Source of the DNA: Planctomycetota bacterium
GTDB lineage: Bacteria > Planctomycetota > Phycisphaerae > WQYP01
Assembly (NCBI GenBank): GCA_021805985.1
Contig: JAJZDN010000033.1
Location: 1 to 40,746 of the forward strand
Length of the DNA stretch: 40,746 nt
Reading direction: 5' to 3'
Positions 19,670 to 26,590 of this stretch are shown piece after piece. The notes beneath the pieces are model-generated. The model saw only the letters and a program-made list of their open reading frames with translations, was not told the DNA's origin and made no database searches. Numbering within the stretch: the first letter of the stretch is position 1; every line of letters begins with the position of its first letter. A program made the translations under genes and the position numbers.

Positions 19670-19709
19670 TTCTTTGCCATGCTGGGCAAGTTATGTTCAA
19701 ATAGTGCCT

Positions 19710-21935
19710 ATGGCCGAATTGTCACCACTATCCGCTGATTCTAATGGTCCATCCTATGGGCCTCCCCGCACTGTGGAACTGTCGCAGGGTGTCAGGGCAA
19801 CGCGGAAATATGTGCTGGGAGTGGTGGGGATCTTTCTGCTGGCGCTGGTGGCCTATTGGCCGTTGCATACGGCAGGGTATATCTGGGATGACGGGGGATG
19901 GCTGGTCCATAATCATTTTGTCCATCATTGGCGGGGGCTGGGGAATATATGGTTTAACCCGCATGATTCCATTCAGTATTATCCGTTGGTCTTTACAGCT
20001 TTTAATATCCAATGGCATATCTGGGGCGGCAATGCACTTGGTTATCATCTGCTGAATATCATGATGCAGGCGACAGATGCGGTTTTGTTGTGGCGGATTC
20101 TCAAGGCGTTAGGCCTGCGTAGCGCCTGGATTGCCGCGGCGATCTGGGCGATTCATCCCGTGCAGGTGGAAACCGTGGGATGGGTGGTGGAGCAAAAAAG
20201 TCTTCTTTCAGCTCTGTTTCTGTTTCCGGCCGTGCTGGCCTGGACCCGTTTTGCGGATTTTACGACCCACCGCCCTGTTGGTGAACCCCTATTAAGCGCA
20301 CGGCAATGGAAAATTTACGCGCTGGCAACATTGTCCTTTATCCTGGCACTGTGTTCTAAAACAGATGCCTGCGTTGTTCCGGTGGTGCTGCTTTTTGTGC
20401 TGGTTTGGAAACGTGGGTTTATCAATAAACGTGATATTCTGCTGATGGTCCCATGGATGATTGCGGGATCCCTTGCGGCTTGGATGACGATTCACATTGA
20501 GCACGGCCAAGCGGGCGCCAAGGGGCACCGTTTCCATTTTTCCGTAGCACAGCATTTAATTATTGCGGGTAAAGACCTGTGGTTTTATCCCTTTAAGCTA
20601 TTCTGGCCCTGGCCGATGATGGCGGTTTATCCGCGTTGGCATATAAGCCATGTGGCGGCGTGGGAATGGATTTTTCCGGTTACCGCCTTTGCTATCCCCC
20701 TGGTGCTCCTGGCATTGTCCAAAAAAATCGGACGGGGAGCGTTCGTGGCCGTTTGTGTTTACGGATTAATGATTTCCCCCCTGCTGGGTTTTATCGCCTT
20801 TTACACGGAAGAATATACGTTTGTCGCGGACCATTATCAGTATCTGGCGTGCATCGGGATTATTGTGATGGTCACAGAGACTGCGGCAGGAATTTTTAGT
20901 TGCTTGGGACGCTTTGATAAACCATCGAACGATCAAGGCGTGCCGGCCGAGGCGCAGGCGTCAGCGACCGTGCTGGCGGATGCCAATAATGGCATGGTGA
21001 GTTGGCTAAGCGCGGCGGTTTCTGTTCTGGTATTGCTGGCCTTAGGAACCATGACTTGGGCACAAAGCGAAATTTATACGCCGCCGCTGCGGGTCTGGAC
21101 GCATAACCTCCGATGCAATCCGGATTGCTGGCTGGCCATGGAACAAATGGGCGTGTATGAATACGGGAAAGGACACATTGCCGCGGCGCAGGTGCTTTTT
21201 CAGCGGGCTAATGAACTTTCGCATGGCAGGAATCTGATTGTCAATGCGAATCTCGGTGATGTGTATCGAAACCTTGGGCAGTATGCCAAAGCCATTCCCT
21301 ATTACCGTCGGTCTCTGGCGGTGGCGGGTCGACAACCTCCGGTTATCTCCCATCTGGTTGAGTGCTATGAAAAAATCGGCGATTGGCGGCTGGCATATCG
21401 GGACCTGGCGCAGGGTGTTCGATTGCTGCCCCACTCGGCTGATCTGCAAACCAAGTTGGGGTCCATGCTGGCCCGGGCAGGACATGCCAAGCGAGCCATA
21501 CCACACTTTCGGGCAGCCATAAAATATGAACCGCAGGACACCAAGGCGCTTTTTGGCTTGGCGGAGTGCCTGAATGCAACAGGGCAGTGGCAAACGGCGA
21601 TTCCCTATTACCGTCGAGCGCTGAAAGCCTCGCCGGATTTCGGACAAGGACATTTTGCGTATGGTATGGTGCTATTGCAGCATTCAAACCCCGCCGCCGC
21701 CGCACGGCAATTTCAGAAAGTCCTGACGTTAGGCCGGCAACGGCGGCTGGAACATCATACGTTAGGCAGGCACGGTGCACCCGAGCCGTGGCGCATACTG
21801 ACGCATCAGGCCTTGGCAGCCGCGTTGCTGGCCCTGCATCATCCGCGGCAGGCGGCCAGGCAATCTGCAATAGTCAAGCAGTTGTTGCAGCGGCAGAAGC
21901 ATTTATCGCCGGTACAGCAAACGGACGGAAAATAA
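19710..21935 (+). CDS. GT-C-type membrane glycosyltransferase with C-terminal TPR repeats
   Basis: A 741-residue membrane protein. After a short polar N-terminus, about ten transmembrane helices carry GT-C motifs: GYIWDDGGWLVHN (acidic pair in the first outer loop) and HPVQVETVGWVVEQKSLLSALF, both as in TMTC/PMT-like proteins that use lipid-linked sugars. From about residue 470 at least six TPR units follow (YAKAIPYYRRSLAVA, AKRAIPHFRAAIKYEPQD, WQTAIPYYRRALKASPDF). It probably glycosylates exported proteins, with TPRs binding partners; the acceptor is unknown. The start is unsure: ATG 19710 lacks a ribosome site, while TTG 19674 has GGAG four bases upstream. The gene at 21954 is a paralogue. 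Confidence 0.85.
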   Translation: MAELSPLSADSNGPSYGPPRTVELSQGVRATRKYVLGVVGIFLLALVAYWPLHTAGYIWDDGGWLVHNHFVHHWRGLGNIWFNPHDSIQYYPLVFTAFNIQWHIWGGNALGYHLLNIMMQATDAVLLWRILKALGLRSAWIAAAIWAIHPVQVETVGWVVEQKSLLSALFLFPAVLAWTRFADFTTHRPVGEPLLSARQWKIYALATLSFILALCSKTDACVVPVVLLFVLVWKRGFINKRDILLMVPWMIAGSLAAWMTIHIEHGQAGAKGHRFHFSVAQHLIIAGKDLWFYPFKLFWPWPMMAVYPRWHISHVAAWEWIFPVTAFAIPLVLLALSKKIGRGAFVAVCVYGLMISPLLGFIAFYTEEYTFVADHYQYLACIGIIVMVTETAAGIFSCLGRFDKPSNDQGVPAEAQASATVLADANNGMVSWLSAAVSVLVLLALGTMTWAQSEIYTPPLRVWTHNLRCNPDCWLAMEQMGVYEYGKGHIAAAQVLFQRANELSHGRNLIVNANLGDVYRNLGQYAKAIPYYRRSLAVAGRQPPVISHLVECYEKIGDWRLAYRDLAQGVRLLPHSADLQTKLGSMLARAGHAKRAIPHFRAAIKYEPQDTKALFGLAECLNATGQWQTAIPYYRRALKASPDFGQGHFAYGMVLLQHSNPAAAARQFQKVLTLGRQRRLEHHTLGRHGAPEPWRILTHQALAAALLALHHPRQAARQSAIVKQLLQRQKHLSPVQQTDGK

Positions 21936-21953
21936 GGTCATAAAGGGTATTAC

Positions 21954-23774
21954 ATGAAGCGAAAGAACCCCAGCAAATCCATGGCACCGACAAGCAGTTC
22001 CGCCGAAGTTGCCATGGTCCGCTCTGGGCGCAGGCGGTGGCTTACTATTTTGGGGATTGGCGGGTTGCTTTTGCTGACGCTGGCGGCTTATTACCCGTTG
22101 CGATGGGGCATATTCCTCTGGGATGATGCCGCCTGGTTGACCAACAACCCACTGATCCATCATTGGCGGGGTTTTGAAATATTCTGGCTTTCCACCAAGG
22201 CTATGGGGGAAGTGCAATATTATCCCATGACATTAAGTGTCTTATCCATTGAATATCATCTGTGGGGTCTGCAAACCCTGCCTTATCACCTGGTGAATGT
22301 ATTATTTCAGGCCGCCAACGCCATTCTTCTCTGGTTTATTCTGCAGAGATTGGAATTGCGATCCGCGTGGCTGGTGGCCGCGCTGTTTGCCATTCATCCG
22401 GTTCAGGTTGAGACGGTGGGGTGGATAGCGGAAATTAAAAACCTGCTCTCCGGTTTGTTTTATTTTCTGGCGCTGCTTAGTTTTCTAAAATTTATCGACG
22501 TGGGGCCCAAAATCGTGACCGGCCGTGATTCTGCTAATTCCCCAAAGCCCTATCAGAATCATCAGTTATATATTGTTTCAACGATTTTATTTTTACTGGG
22601 ATTGCTAAGCAAAACCGCGGTTTGCACCTTACCGGTGGCCATTTTAGTGATTCTCTGGTGGAAAGATCGCTGGCGGGACAGGGAAATTATTCTGCGGCTG
22701 GTACCCTGGTTCCTCATTGCGTTTATCATCGGCCTGGTGACGGTTCATGTGGAGCATACCAGTGTAGGCACGCACGGGGCGGACTGGCGATTTACCATTG
22801 GACAACGAATTTTAATCGCGGGCCATGCGTTCTGGTTTTATATTATCAAATTATTCTGGCCCCATCCGTTGCTGATGATTTATCCACGATGGCATCTGGG
22901 AAACAGTGTTGGATACATTTGGGCTATCGCTGCGGTCGCTCTGTTTGCATTTCTGTGGTTCATGAGGGATCGCATTGGGCGGGGACCGATGGCGGCGATG
23001 CTGTTTTACCTTATTACCATTGGGCCGGTACTGGGTTTTATCACTTTTTATACGCAGCTTTACAGCTTTGTCGCGGATCACTATCAGTATCTGGCGTGCA
23101 TTGGCCCGATGGTATTGGCGGGCGAGCTTATTTACTGGGCTGCTGAAAAGGCCGGTCGGCGGAAGCACATTATAAGCTTCTGGGTGTCGGCGGCGCTCCT
23201 GGTGATACTGGGGGGGGTAACGTTTAATCAGAGCCGCCTTTATGATTGGGATTACTCGCTGTGGCATTATGTCTATCAGCACAATCGGCATTCTTTTATC
23301 GTCAAGGGACAGTATGGAGCCACGCTGCTGGAGCGGCAGGAATACGGGCTCGCAATGAAGCAGCTTGTTGCGGCCAATGCTATGCACCCCCATGCCATTG
23401 CGGTGGTATTTAATCTGGCATCGGGGTATATGATCACGGGGCATTATCATCATGCGTTGCATTATTATGGCTGGTATCTCCTGCACGATCCGGGATCCGT
23501 GGATGCCTGGACCGATGCGGCCAATTGTCTGGTGGCATTGCGCGCCTATGAGCCGGCGGCGCGGGATCTGGCGGTGGCGTTGAAACTCAAGCCGAATTTT
23601 GCGGTCGGGTGGATGGAATTAGCGCATGTAAGTTATCTGGCGGGGCATATGAAGTACGCGAAAAAGTTTTATCGCCATGCGATTCGCCTGGATCCCTCCA
23701 TGGCCAAGGTGAAACTTGCCATTTCCGCCAAGCTGCTGCCGCAGATACCGACAGGCCCGGCAATATCCCATTAA
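21954..23774 (+). CDS. GT-C-type membrane glycosyltransferase with TPR repeats (paralogue)
   Basis: A 606-residue paralogue of the preceding protein, with the same landmarks: GIFLWDDAAWLTNNPLIHHW near residue 50, HPVQVETVGWIAEIKNLLSGLF, a FVADHYQYLACIG loop, about ten membrane helices and then roughly four TPR units (from about residue 440). The shared order shows tandem duplication, with fewer TPRs in this copy. AAAGGG lies about eight bases before ATG 21954, and only 18 bases separate the genes, so they form an operon. Sugar and acceptor are unknown. Its stop codon overlaps the first operator repeat of the next gene. Confidence 0.87.
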   Translation: MKRKNPSKSMAPTSSSAEVAMVRSGRRRWLTILGIGGLLLLTLAAYYPLRWGIFLWDDAAWLTNNPLIHHWRGFEIFWLSTKAMGEVQYYPMTLSVLSIEYHLWGLQTLPYHLVNVLFQAANAILLWFILQRLELRSAWLVAALFAIHPVQVETVGWIAEIKNLLSGLFYFLALLSFLKFIDVGPKIVTGRDSANSPKPYQNHQLYIVSTILFLLGLLSKTAVCTLPVAILVILWWKDRWRDREIILRLVPWFLIAFIIGLVTVHVEHTSVGTHGADWRFTIGQRILIAGHAFWFYIIKLFWPHPLLMIYPRWHLGNSVGYIWAIAAVALFAFLWFMRDRIGRGPMAAMLFYLITIGPVLGFITFYTQLYSFVADHYQYLACIGPMVLAGELIYWAAEKAGRRKHIISFWVSAALLVILGGVTFNQSRLYDWDYSLWHYVYQHNRHSFIVKGQYGATLLERQEYGLAMKQLVAANAMHPHAIAVVFNLASGYMITGHYHHALHYYGWYLLHDPGSVDAWTDAANCLVALRAYEPAARDLAVALKLKPNFAVGWMELAHVSYLAGHMKYAKKFYRHAIRLDPSMAKVKLAISAKLLPQIPTGPAISH

Positions 23775-23832
23775 GAAAGTAATACAAGAAAGTAATACAC
23801 CGTTGCGGAAAGCAGGTATTACTTTGTATAAT
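23773..23832 (+). promoter_or_regulatory. Promoter with tandem and inverted operator sites for the RHH regulator
   Basis: AAGAAAGTAATAC occurs twice in perfect tandem (23773-23785 and 23786-23798). The inverted half-site GTATTACTTT follows at 23816-23825, giving AAAGTAATAC-N17-GTATTACTTT. A consensus TATAAT (23827-23832) abuts the last site, with TTGCGG 18 bases further up. Ribbon-helix-helix metalloregulators such as NikR use half-sites separated by about 16 bases, so autoregulation by the downstream gene is likely (inference). Confidence 0.8.
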
Positions 23833-23884
23833 AGGACCAGCAGGCGTTATCAAGGCTCTGATATCACGTGTTAAAGGATGACCG

Positions 23885-24346
23885 ATGAAGAAAAATAAAC
23901 GCATCGGCCGAATGCCGAAGGACCAGGTTATGGCCTTTAAGGTGGACGCAAAACTCGCGGAGTTGCTGGGTGGCGTAAAAAATAAAAGCGAATTAATTCG
24001 CGATGCGGTGTATGCGTATCTTGGGCATTTATGTCCATTGTGTGAAGGCAAGGGCACTATTCCGGCCAATCGCAGCCATGAAATTGAACTCCTGCTCAAA
24101 CAGCTTGAATTTGCAACCTGCACGGGCTGCCATACGGCGCTGCCGGTCATGCCGCGATTGCGTAAGCTGGTGAAAACAATGCCCCGGCCGGATCAGTTGC
24201 GGCTCACTGAATTTGAAAAAACCGGCGAATTGTTATGTGTTGATTGCTTTGAGAAAGCCGATCAGTGCGCAACATGCGGCCAGCATGTGCCACACGGGCA
24301 GCTTTCATCGCATTTGGCACGTCGGCACGCAGCGGCAAGGAATTAA
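23885..24346 (+). CDS. Ribbon-helix-helix regulator with Cys/His metal-binding C-terminus
   Basis: A 153-residue protein. Residues about 12-48 form a ribbon-helix-helix DNA-binding domain (VMAFKVDAKLAELLGG, then KSELIRDAVYAYL). The rest is dense in potential metal ligands: C50-C53, C79-C82-H83, C118-C121, C128-C131-H134, H143 and H148, arranged as CxxC pairs that suggest two zinc-ribbon-like sites. I know no named family with this pairing. NikR has a ribbon-helix-helix domain plus an ACT-like sensor instead. With its own operator array upstream and a NiCoT-like permease downstream, it is best read as a metal-responsive regulator; the metal is unknown. Confidence 0.8.
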   Translation: MKKNKRIGRMPKDQVMAFKVDAKLAELLGGVKNKSELIRDAVYAYLGHLCPLCEGKGTIPANRSHEIELLLKQLEFATCTGCHTALPVMPRLRKLVKTMPRPDQLRLTEFEKTGELLCVDCFEKADQCATCGQHVPHGQLSSHLARRHAAARN

Positions 24347-24432
24347 AGCTCCGCGATTTTCAGTCGCAGGCTGCCACGGTGGCAGCAAAGCGCGGATCGC
24401 GGATAAATTGGGTCGTTTGGCGAGGTGGACGC

Positions 24433-25416
24433 ATGTCCTGGCAAATCTTGGCGAGTATGAATTTGTGGAATCCCAGCGGTATGGGAATGACGGTAGCAGC
24501 GATTTTGGCTACCGCGTTTTTGCTGGGAATGGTGCATGGTATTACGCCTGATGAGCACACCTGGCCGATCACCTTCAGCTACAGCGTCGGCAGCTACAGT
24601 TGGAAAGGTGGCATGCGGGCGGGACTGTTGTTTTCGCTGGCCTTTACGGTGCAGCGTTCCATTGCTTCAGAATTGGCCTATTTATTCGTCAAGCCCGTTA
24701 TGGCGTTAATGGGATCAGACTGGTTCAACTATTCGGTTTATATTATCGTTGGAACGGTCATGGCGGGTTCGGGAATTTATATTTTGCGGCGTGGGAAAAT
24801 CTGGCATTTGCTGCATACGCATAACATGCTGCATTCAGAAGGTGGTGCCGATCCGCGGTCGGCTCCGTGGTGGATGCCGCTGGTACACGGGTTTATCGCG
24901 GGCTGGGGTACCGGTGCGTTTGCCATTCTGGTGTATACCGCCCTGGCTCCGCACATGCCAAATGCCTACGTGGGCTTTGTTCCGGGGATGTTCTTTGGCT
25001 TAGGAACGATGGTTATGCAGGTGCTGGTGGGGGGGCTGTTTGGGCAATGGATGGCCAAACGAAAATTCAGCGAAAATGCCCGCGTCATGATTGCCCGGCT
25101 CATGTCCGGACGCGTCCTGACCTGGGGTGGTTTTGGATTTGCTCTGGTAGGGTTAGTCGGGCTGATATTCCCGGCGATTGGCGATCTTCAGATGAATACC
25201 GGTATCAAAATTCATAATTTGGCCCATTTAGGCGTTGGATTTTTCCTGGCAGTTGTGATGCTTTTTGGCGTGGCGGCTGTGGCGTTTTTCAAATCCATTC
25301 GGGATGTTACCGCCATGGGAACGCAGGTGCCGCCGCCCGGTACAGATGCAGATCATGCGTCGTGTGCGCATCACCACCATCAGGATGAATCAGATGCAAA
25401 ACCAACTTCCGAATAG
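24433..25416 (+). CDS. NiCoT/RcnA-like metal permease with His-rich tail
   Basis: A 327-residue membrane protein with about seven hydrophobic segments. GMVHGITPDEHTWPITFSYS resembles the HGxxPDH-type signature in the first helices of nickel/cobalt transporters (NiCoT, UreH, RcnA), though with an extra Glu before the His. A second His motif is VHGFIAGWGTGAF. The C-terminus ends ADHASCAHHHHQDESD, a likely metal-binding tail. Direction of transport cannot be told. ATG 24433 follows GAGGTGG at the right distance; the frame opens at 24265 but overlaps the regulator gene. It lies 86 bases after the regulator and is probably in the same transcript. Confidence 0.75.
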   Translation: MSWQILASMNLWNPSGMGMTVAAILATAFLLGMVHGITPDEHTWPITFSYSVGSYSWKGGMRAGLLFSLAFTVQRSIASELAYLFVKPVMALMGSDWFNYSVYIIVGTVMAGSGIYILRRGKIWHLLHTHNMLHSEGGADPRSAPWWMPLVHGFIAGWGTGAFAILVYTALAPHMPNAYVGFVPGMFFGLGTMVMQVLVGGLFGQWMAKRKFSENARVMIARLMSGRVLTWGGFGFALVGLVGLIFPAIGDLQMNTGIKIHNLAHLGVGFFLAVVMLFGVAAVAFFKSIRDVTAMGTQVPPPGTDADHASCAHHHHQDESDAKPTSE

Positions 25417-25588: not shown

Positions 25589-26590
25589 ATGCGCACCGAC
25601 GCTAAGGTCGCTCTGGTCGCGGTACTGATCATCGTCGTACTGGTTATCATTTACTTTGCATTCCATAATTCGTCGAACAAGACGGCGGAAAATAATGCCC
25701 TTCCCAGCGCCCAGCCCGCGCTGGTGGAGTCGCCGAATCTTCCGGGTTCCAGCCCTGTGCCGCCGGCTCTGACGCAGACCAGCCAAACCCAGCCAGGGCT
25801 GATTTCCCTGCCGGCTACTACCGCTACATCCATGCCCGCCACCATGCCTGGCATGACCGATCAGGCTGCAACGTCCATGCCTGCACCAGCGCTTGATCAA
25901 ACTGCAACGACTTCACCGGCGGCTGATTCCAACGGACCGATCGGTGCAACGGCGGATAATTCCAGTGCGACTTTGGCACTTCCTACATCGGGCGCGGATA
26001 CGGGCACTTCGAGCGCTAATAGTGGCACCCCAAATACCGCATCCAACACTGGCTCTGGCACAACGGCCGGTAACACCAACACGAATGCCACGCTGTATAT
26101 TCCGCCTGTAACTTCCGGCAGTAACGGATCATCCTCGGGAATGTCTTCGCAGGCCCGTGGTCATCGCAGCAGGATGCTGAAACTTTCGGCCCCGCACAAC
26201 GGCATCTATGTGGTTCGCAAGGGCGATACACTGGCTTCCATTTCCCGGCATATTTACGGCAATGAACGCATGATTCACGCACTGGAAAGGGCCAACCCGG
26301 GCCTGGATCCGCGCCGCATGCGCGTAGGACAAAAAATTCGTCTTCCGCATCATGGCACCGCACGCGCGGTCGCAAGACATCGCACATTGCGGCGGCATGT
26401 TTATGCGTCTTCCGCACGCGGCGGACGCACGTATGTAGTTCGTGCCGGGGAAGATTTATCTGGAATCGCCCGGAAGTTCTACCACAACCCCGCCATGTGG
26501 AAGAAAATCTACAACGCCAACCGGCGTGTCATCGGGTCAAGTCCCAATAAGCTTCGCGCTGGCGAACGAATCGTGATTCCCGCAAGATAA
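25589..26590 (+). CDS. Membrane-anchored LysM protein
   Basis: A 333-residue protein with one N-terminal membrane helix (VALVAVLIIVVLVIIYFAF), a long Thr/Ser/Pro/Ala/Gly-rich linker (about residues 30-195), and two LysM domains: YVVRKGDTLASISRHIYG (from about 207) and YVVRAGEDLSGIARKFYH (from about 281), each ending in a KIRLP/ERIVIP-type strand. LysM binds peptidoglycan or other GlcNAc polymers, so the protein probably links the inner membrane to the wall. GGGAG precedes ATG 25589. There is no enzymatic domain. It stands alone, 172 bases after the permease. Confidence 0.88.
   Translation: MRTDAKVALVAVLIIVVLVIIYFAFHNSSNKTAENNALPSAQPALVESPNLPGSSPVPPALTQTSQTQPGLISLPATTATSMPATMPGMTDQAATSMPAPALDQTATTSPAADSNGPIGATADNSSATLALPTSGADTGTSSANSGTPNTASNTGSGTTAGNTNTNATLYIPPVTSGSNGSSSGMSSQARGHRSRMLKLSAPHNGIYVVRKGDTLASISRHIYGNERMIHALERANPGLDPRRMRVGQKIRLPHHGTARAVARHRTLRRHVYASSARGGRTYVVRAGEDLSGIARKFYHNPAMWKKIYNANRRVIGSSPNKLRAGERIVIPAR

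Follow-up and report, generated by a model that had tools for sequence, protein, structure and literature searches.

Only a handful of protein folds are known to serve in metal-sensing repressors; in the papers that we found, the ribbon-helix-helix (RHH) fold is represented by NikR. Its half-sites start with GTAT and are arranged as GTATGA-N16-TCATAC (PMC7055735). A study of zinc exoproteins in cyanobacteria finds that zinc genes in the PVC superphylum are located close to FUR genes, leaving RHH regulators unmentioned (PMC10957091), and in a study of zinc in Paracoccus a CopG regulator appears as a table entry only (PMC5387054). Our search of the open-access literature returned neither an RHH zinc regulator nor a zinc repressor of planctomycetes.

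Here, we describe a planctomycete locus contained in a stretch of 40,746 nucleotides (contig JAJZDN010000033.1), which was analysed as a whole and is called the window. Its regulator is very probably a zinc-sensing repressor of zinc uptake genes and belongs to a new family in which an RHH domain is joined to a Cys4 zinc ribbon; we infer both the zinc ligand and the repressing action. Of the known systems, NikR comes closest in principle and Zur in function, and the regulator belongs to neither. Common to NikR and the regulator are the RHH domain, a C-terminal metal site (predicted here), the proposed repression of metal importers and the GTAT start of the half-sites. In contrast to NikR, the regulator carries a Cys4 ribbon instead of an ACT-type domain, the half-sites of the putative operator, a 17-bp dyad, are separated by one helical turn, and the predicted targets serve zinc uptake. 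Zur shares the predicted job and the targets (znuABC, outer-membrane entry proteins and possibly exported zinc proteins), whereas its winged helix differs from the RHH fold, its site is a different one and its sequence is unrelated. RHH metal-sensing repressors are a known kind; sensor, operator and regulon appear to be new.

Results

An RHH protein with conserved cysteines

The regulator gene (positions 23885-24346; this and all other parts of the locus are on the plus strand) is an open reading frame of 153 codons whose product contains eight cysteines and seven histidines. Orthologues are present in 22 of 28 genomes of the window's family, and 52 of the 248 genomes sampled from the class contain a relative. 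No Pfam or NCBIfam family covers the protein, and no curated family scored past its cut-off. RHH_1 reached 14.1 bits with the window's regulator, which is under the cut-off, and an E value of 0.0034 among the relatives in a profile search. The nearest curated family to the RHH part, that of the archaeal cell-cycle repressor aCcr1, matched relative L077 with 30.9 bits (E 1.8e-7; cut-off 60); it differs in function, and its 38-position model lacks the zinc ribbon.

No usable model of the regulator was obtained from its sequence alone, whereas alignment of 60 relatives led to a good one (mean pLDDT 81) comprising the RHH helices plus the Cys-bearing region. Helices at residues 22-29 and 34-46 follow an extended segment, and the N-terminus has the strand-helix-helix of about 45 residues typical of the RHH superfamily. 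The model helices and the RHH_1 and aCcr1 scores place the DNA-binding domain at approximately residues 14-48 (23924-24028). As a fold search of the model against the PDB returned weak zinc-finger arrays only and no significant match, the RHH assignment rests on sequence and model.

A first metal site, CPLC-x25-CTGC(H), is predicted from conservation (C50, C53, C79, C82 and H83; 24032-24133). As the preliminary description had demanded of its potential ligands, the cysteines are conserved: C50 and C53 occur in 60/60 and C79 and C82 in 59/60 aligned relatives. S35, I38, R39, P51, G55 and G57 are invariant together with C50 and C53 in this alignment, and C79 and C82 are nearly so. A second Cys/His module (C118, C121, C128, C131, H134 and H143; 24236-24328), recognised by conservation within the family, is invariant in 21/21 members of the window's family. 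The C118-C131 module is missing from short relatives linked to znuABC.

The locus had initially been described as a nickel-responsive, NikR-like circuit. We rejected identity with NikR, which was matched neither in Pfam and NCBIfam nor in the PDB; the RHH domain is followed by a Cys ribbon, not by an ACT-like nickel domain. The Fur-type winged helix and dimer domain (PF01475) did not match the regulator either, and FUR genes are separate.

A 17-bp dyad overlapping the promoter

Comparison of the upstream regions of 21 family members revealed a conserved operator, the 17-bp dyad GTAWTAC-N3-GTAWTAC. Its half-sites of 7 bp (GTAWWAC or GTAWTAC) are one helical turn (10 bp) apart, which suggests that two RHH dimers bind next to each other on the same face of the double helix. 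The main operator of the window, identified by matrix score and conservation, reads GTATTAC-TTT-GTATAAT (GTATTACTTTGTATAAT; 23816-23832). With a matrix trained on other families it scored 15.7 bits, above 60 shuffles. A TATAAT -10 element (23827-23832) lies within the right half of the dyad. The putative -35 element, a weak hexamer TTGCGG (3/6; 23803-23808) read from the sequence 18 bp from TATAAT, is under the threshold of a consensus promoter scan, which found nothing in the window. Since the dyad covers the spacer and the -10 element, binding should repress transcription.

Tandem upstream arms (two copies of AAGAAAGTAATAC at 23773-23785 and 23786-23798, within 23769-23798) are located 5' of the -35 region, and an inverted GTATTACTTT (23816-23825) follows the tandem boxes after 17 bases. 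Three box matches with up to two mismatches were counted in the window against 0.35 expected, and 1 of 100 shuffles reached three. All elements listed in the preliminary description, namely the RHH/Cys-His reading frame, the tandem and inverted boxes, the TATAAT, the permease motif and its His tail, are present where it had placed them. Its proposed operator, the pair GTAATAC-N17-GTATTAC, did not hold up, as only the 17-bp dyad recurs and not boxes separated by 17 bases. Only the window's close relatives have the 13-bp tandem duplication. Positions orthologous to the upstream arm start with GTATAAG in G007, G006, G003, G002 and G004, and the single upstream arm of G007 reads GTATAAGAAAGTAATAC.

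Conservation of the boxes upstream of orthologues, which had been anticipated, was borne out by the dyad, which recurs across the family. With a matrix derived from loci of other families, a site above all 60 shuffles was found in 12/21 genomes of the window's family, and in most members it is positioned 54-171 bases upstream of the regulator. Conversely, when a matrix from the window's family was applied to 28 loci of other families, 26 scored higher than any of the 60 shuffles. The strict dyad pattern is present in 17/21 family members and 14/28 others (shuffle means 0.01 and 0, respectively). Genus g8 has no clear box upstream of the regulator itself, and in branches f51, f70 and f80 the regulator is present and a perfect site absent.

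A whole-genome search for RTAWTACNNNGTAWTAY yielded 31 sites in 47 genomes, 19 of them at the regulator operon or a znuA, and its reversed control pattern none in the same 47 genomes. The first 28 genomes contributed 20 sites, of which the regulator operon accounts for 12 and another znuA for one; four of the remaining seven are copies of the dyad RTATTACTSAGTAATAT in G142 (L186 and three more places), apparently inside a repeated element. The further 19 genomes, from other branches, contributed 11 sites, six of which (family f3) are directly before znuA.

Zinc uptake genes as predicted targets

The regulator's short relatives, found in 11 other families, mostly reside next to zinc uptake genes: znuA, znuC or znuB adjoins the regulator in 25/28 loci, most commonly in the order regulator-znuA-znuC-znuB. 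In seven other families of the class a relative heads such a cluster, and four families from other parts of the phylum have znu genes beside it. The operator-linked importer genes match ZnuA, ABC_tran and ABC-3 in Pfam, and the ZnuA-type binding proteins of L217 and L197 have His-rich loops.

The link between dyad and znuA persists in trans. Six f3 genomes, in which the regulator is unlinked to znuABC, contain exactly one perfect dyad each, before znuA (L213/L219 in G029, L216-L218, L220 and L221). In a control scan of 19 znuA upstream regions, the sole strong site was that of G029, which holds a regulator of the f3 branch, and the other regions had no comparable site. Among 20 searched genomes of the window's family, extra sites precede znuA-znuC-znuB in G008, G010 and G018, and eight OprB porin genes have an upstream site (two in G000 and one each in G004, G006, G007, G010, G011 and G018). 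OprB porins are the predicted non-regulator targets in the window's own genus. As expected of a repressor of zinc uptake, the predicted operator thus precedes zinc uptake genes. Control of nickel uptake was rejected, the sites being at znuABC, OprB and permease genes.

G055 contains four perfect dyads (L214, L222, L223 and L224), which adjoin genes for an ArsP_1-type permease, a surface protein with dockerin, a small exported protein rich in His, and an ABC exporter; a wider regulon is possible. In family f51 (L162-L164, L166 and L167), a MerC-like membrane protein, assigned to Pfam MerC in the one tested, is encoded after the regulator relative, and there is no perfect dyad. In L154 (1817-2470) and L156 (739-1446), a regulator with dyad precedes a membrane protein that is a candidate for another zinc transporter. 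Its N-terminus is His-rich in L156, and the part of the L154 protein that was tested had no Pfam match. A second regulator copy of G047 (L083, 4344-6184) is flanked closely by choice-of-anchor-M/PEP-CTERM surface proteins on its upstream side and by a FUR gene on its downstream side.

The neighbouring permease

The permease, a proposed zinc importer, is encoded at 24433-25416 and starts 86 bases past the regulator stop. From the best start it comprises 327 amino acids with six hydrophobic segments, the motif HGITPDEH at residues 35-42 and HHHH at 313-316 in a tail that is His-rich in many members. It had been described as NiCoT-like. This assignment was not sustained, because there was no match at all in Pfam or NCBIfam and comparison by HHalign with NiCoTs from its own bacterial family gave a probability of 0.6%. 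These NiCoTs are separate genes, and G000 has no NicO. Membership in NicO (PF03824) was likewise rejected, given that no profile matched and a HAxDADH-type signature is missing. In 392 genomes of the phylum, the permease matched only two proteins outside the window's family, both weakly: an RcnA-like NicO protein and a DsbD_2 protein (E 2e-5 and 3e-5; HHalign 57% and 83%). NicO/RcnA and DsbD_2 proteins resemble the permease in having six hydrophobic segments and a His-x6-His motif where helix 1 ends, and they match it weakly by profile, whereas HGITPDEH replaces their HAxDADH or HALEPGH. On profile evidence, the permease appears to be a remote NicO/RcnA-DsbD_2 relative and not a NiCoT, and these comparisons did not assign it to a non-metal family. 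A search of genome contigs with the single permease sequence returned near relatives only; the closely related genomes with this permease are metagenome-assembled, one labelled Phycisphaerales.

The permease adjoins the regulator except in genera g8 and g2. In g8 it is encoded on another contig with its own box GTATAAGAACGTAATAC, and in g2 it is absent and ZnuABC present. In a comparison of 11 genera of the family, ZnuA and the permease are mutually exclusive except in g4; two genomes carry both. Fisher's test gave p 0.0014 when genomes with a completeness of 85% or more were counted and p 0.015 when genera were counted, values that overstate independence because the genomes are related. As the permease shares the box even when located elsewhere and nearly excludes ZnuABC, it probably imports zinc in place of this transporter, although we infer the direction of transport.

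Discussion

Gene order, conserved cysteines, a conserved operator, its link to target genes and the complementary occurrence of permease and ZnuABC are the observations on which our model is built. When zinc is sufficient, the Cys-ribbon sites would be filled, and zinc-loaded dimers side by side on GTAWTAC-N3-GTAWTAC would block RNA polymerase. When zinc is short, the regulator would leave the DNA, allowing expression of the zinc uptake genes and of the regulator itself. The uptake genes under its control would be znuABC in most planctomycetes that have them, and OprB-type porins together with the neighbouring permease in the window's lineage, where the permease may move zinc across the inner membrane instead of ZnuABC. 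Co-regulation of uptake genes implies that the metal is a co-repressor, which is also its role with NikR and Zur. The targets, together with the Cys4 ribbon, make zinc the most likely ligand, and a regulon of ZnuABC and OprB argues for zinc rather than nickel. The metalloregulatory circuit of the preliminary description is therefore retained in its RHH repressor with a Cys/His zinc-ribbon sensor, its conserved operators and its metal-related permease, and abandoned in its nickel and NikR framing. On balance, we consider it somewhat likelier than otherwise that an RHH/zinc-ribbon zinc sensor with its own operator took the place of Zur in planctomycetes and that a new family of zinc importers displaced ZnuABC in one lineage.

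One rival reading concerns the permease alone. Its nearest detectable relatives include RcnA-type proteins and its tail is often His-rich, so that it might export zinc (or nickel/cobalt) under an otherwise unchanged regulator. We regard this as fairly unlikely, since the permease has its operator in common with znuABC and the porins, the site overlaps the -10 region in a way suggesting repression, and the gene occurs where ZnuABC is missing. ZnuA-type (cluster A-I) transporters may carry manganese or iron. The binding proteins of this cluster include manganese and iron types, and RcnA/NicO nickel-cobalt proteins appear to be remote relatives of the permease, as would fit a regulator that senses Mn, Fe or Co/Ni, with a structural Cys ribbon and with the ZnuABC-like transporters and the permease carrying that metal. 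Such a sensor is improbable in view of the Pfam ZnuA matches of the operator-linked binding proteins, the His-rich loops in L217 and L197 that are typical of zinc types, the suitability of Cys-rich ligands for zinc and the true NiCoTs encoded separately in the same bacterial family.

Zinc sensing by the RHH protein also has to be weighed against a Fur-family protein (Zur) that binds the dyad and has the RHH gene merely as another target. Some versions of the dyad, such as GTTATACTTTGTATAAC, look like Zur boxes, and almost all genomes of the window's family carry one or more FUR genes. However, the dyad tracks the RHH gene rather than FUR and is missing from genomes that have FUR and znuABC and no regulator, and its 7-3-7 architecture with half-sites 10 bp apart is unlike the Fur/Zur consensus. 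Moreover, the genera without the regulator (g7, g9 and g10) have ZnuA and two FUR genes, whereas the others have at most one. A Zur-bound dyad is thus very unlikely; where the RHH protein is missing, a Fur-type Zur presumably does its job. Many RHH proteins are self-regulating antitoxins, and an antitoxin or plasmid-type autoregulator could be near metal genes by accident. With znu genes recurring in 11 families, no recurring toxin-like partner and the same dyad at unlinked znuA, we give this explanation hardly any credence.

If the regulator is the zinc sensor that we propose, RHH proteins would provide a new solution to zinc homeostasis, and Planctomycetota would gain a predicted zinc regulon with a defined operator, GTAWTAC-N3-GTAWTAC, together with a candidate zinc importer outside the known families. 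The flanks of the locus in the window have features of their own. Upstream of the regulator (19674-23774), two membrane proteins encoded side by side, each with TPR repeats at the C-terminus, appear to be a duplicated pair, and the gene directly after the permease (25589-26590) encodes two LysM domains and a long Ser/Thr/Pro-rich stretch.
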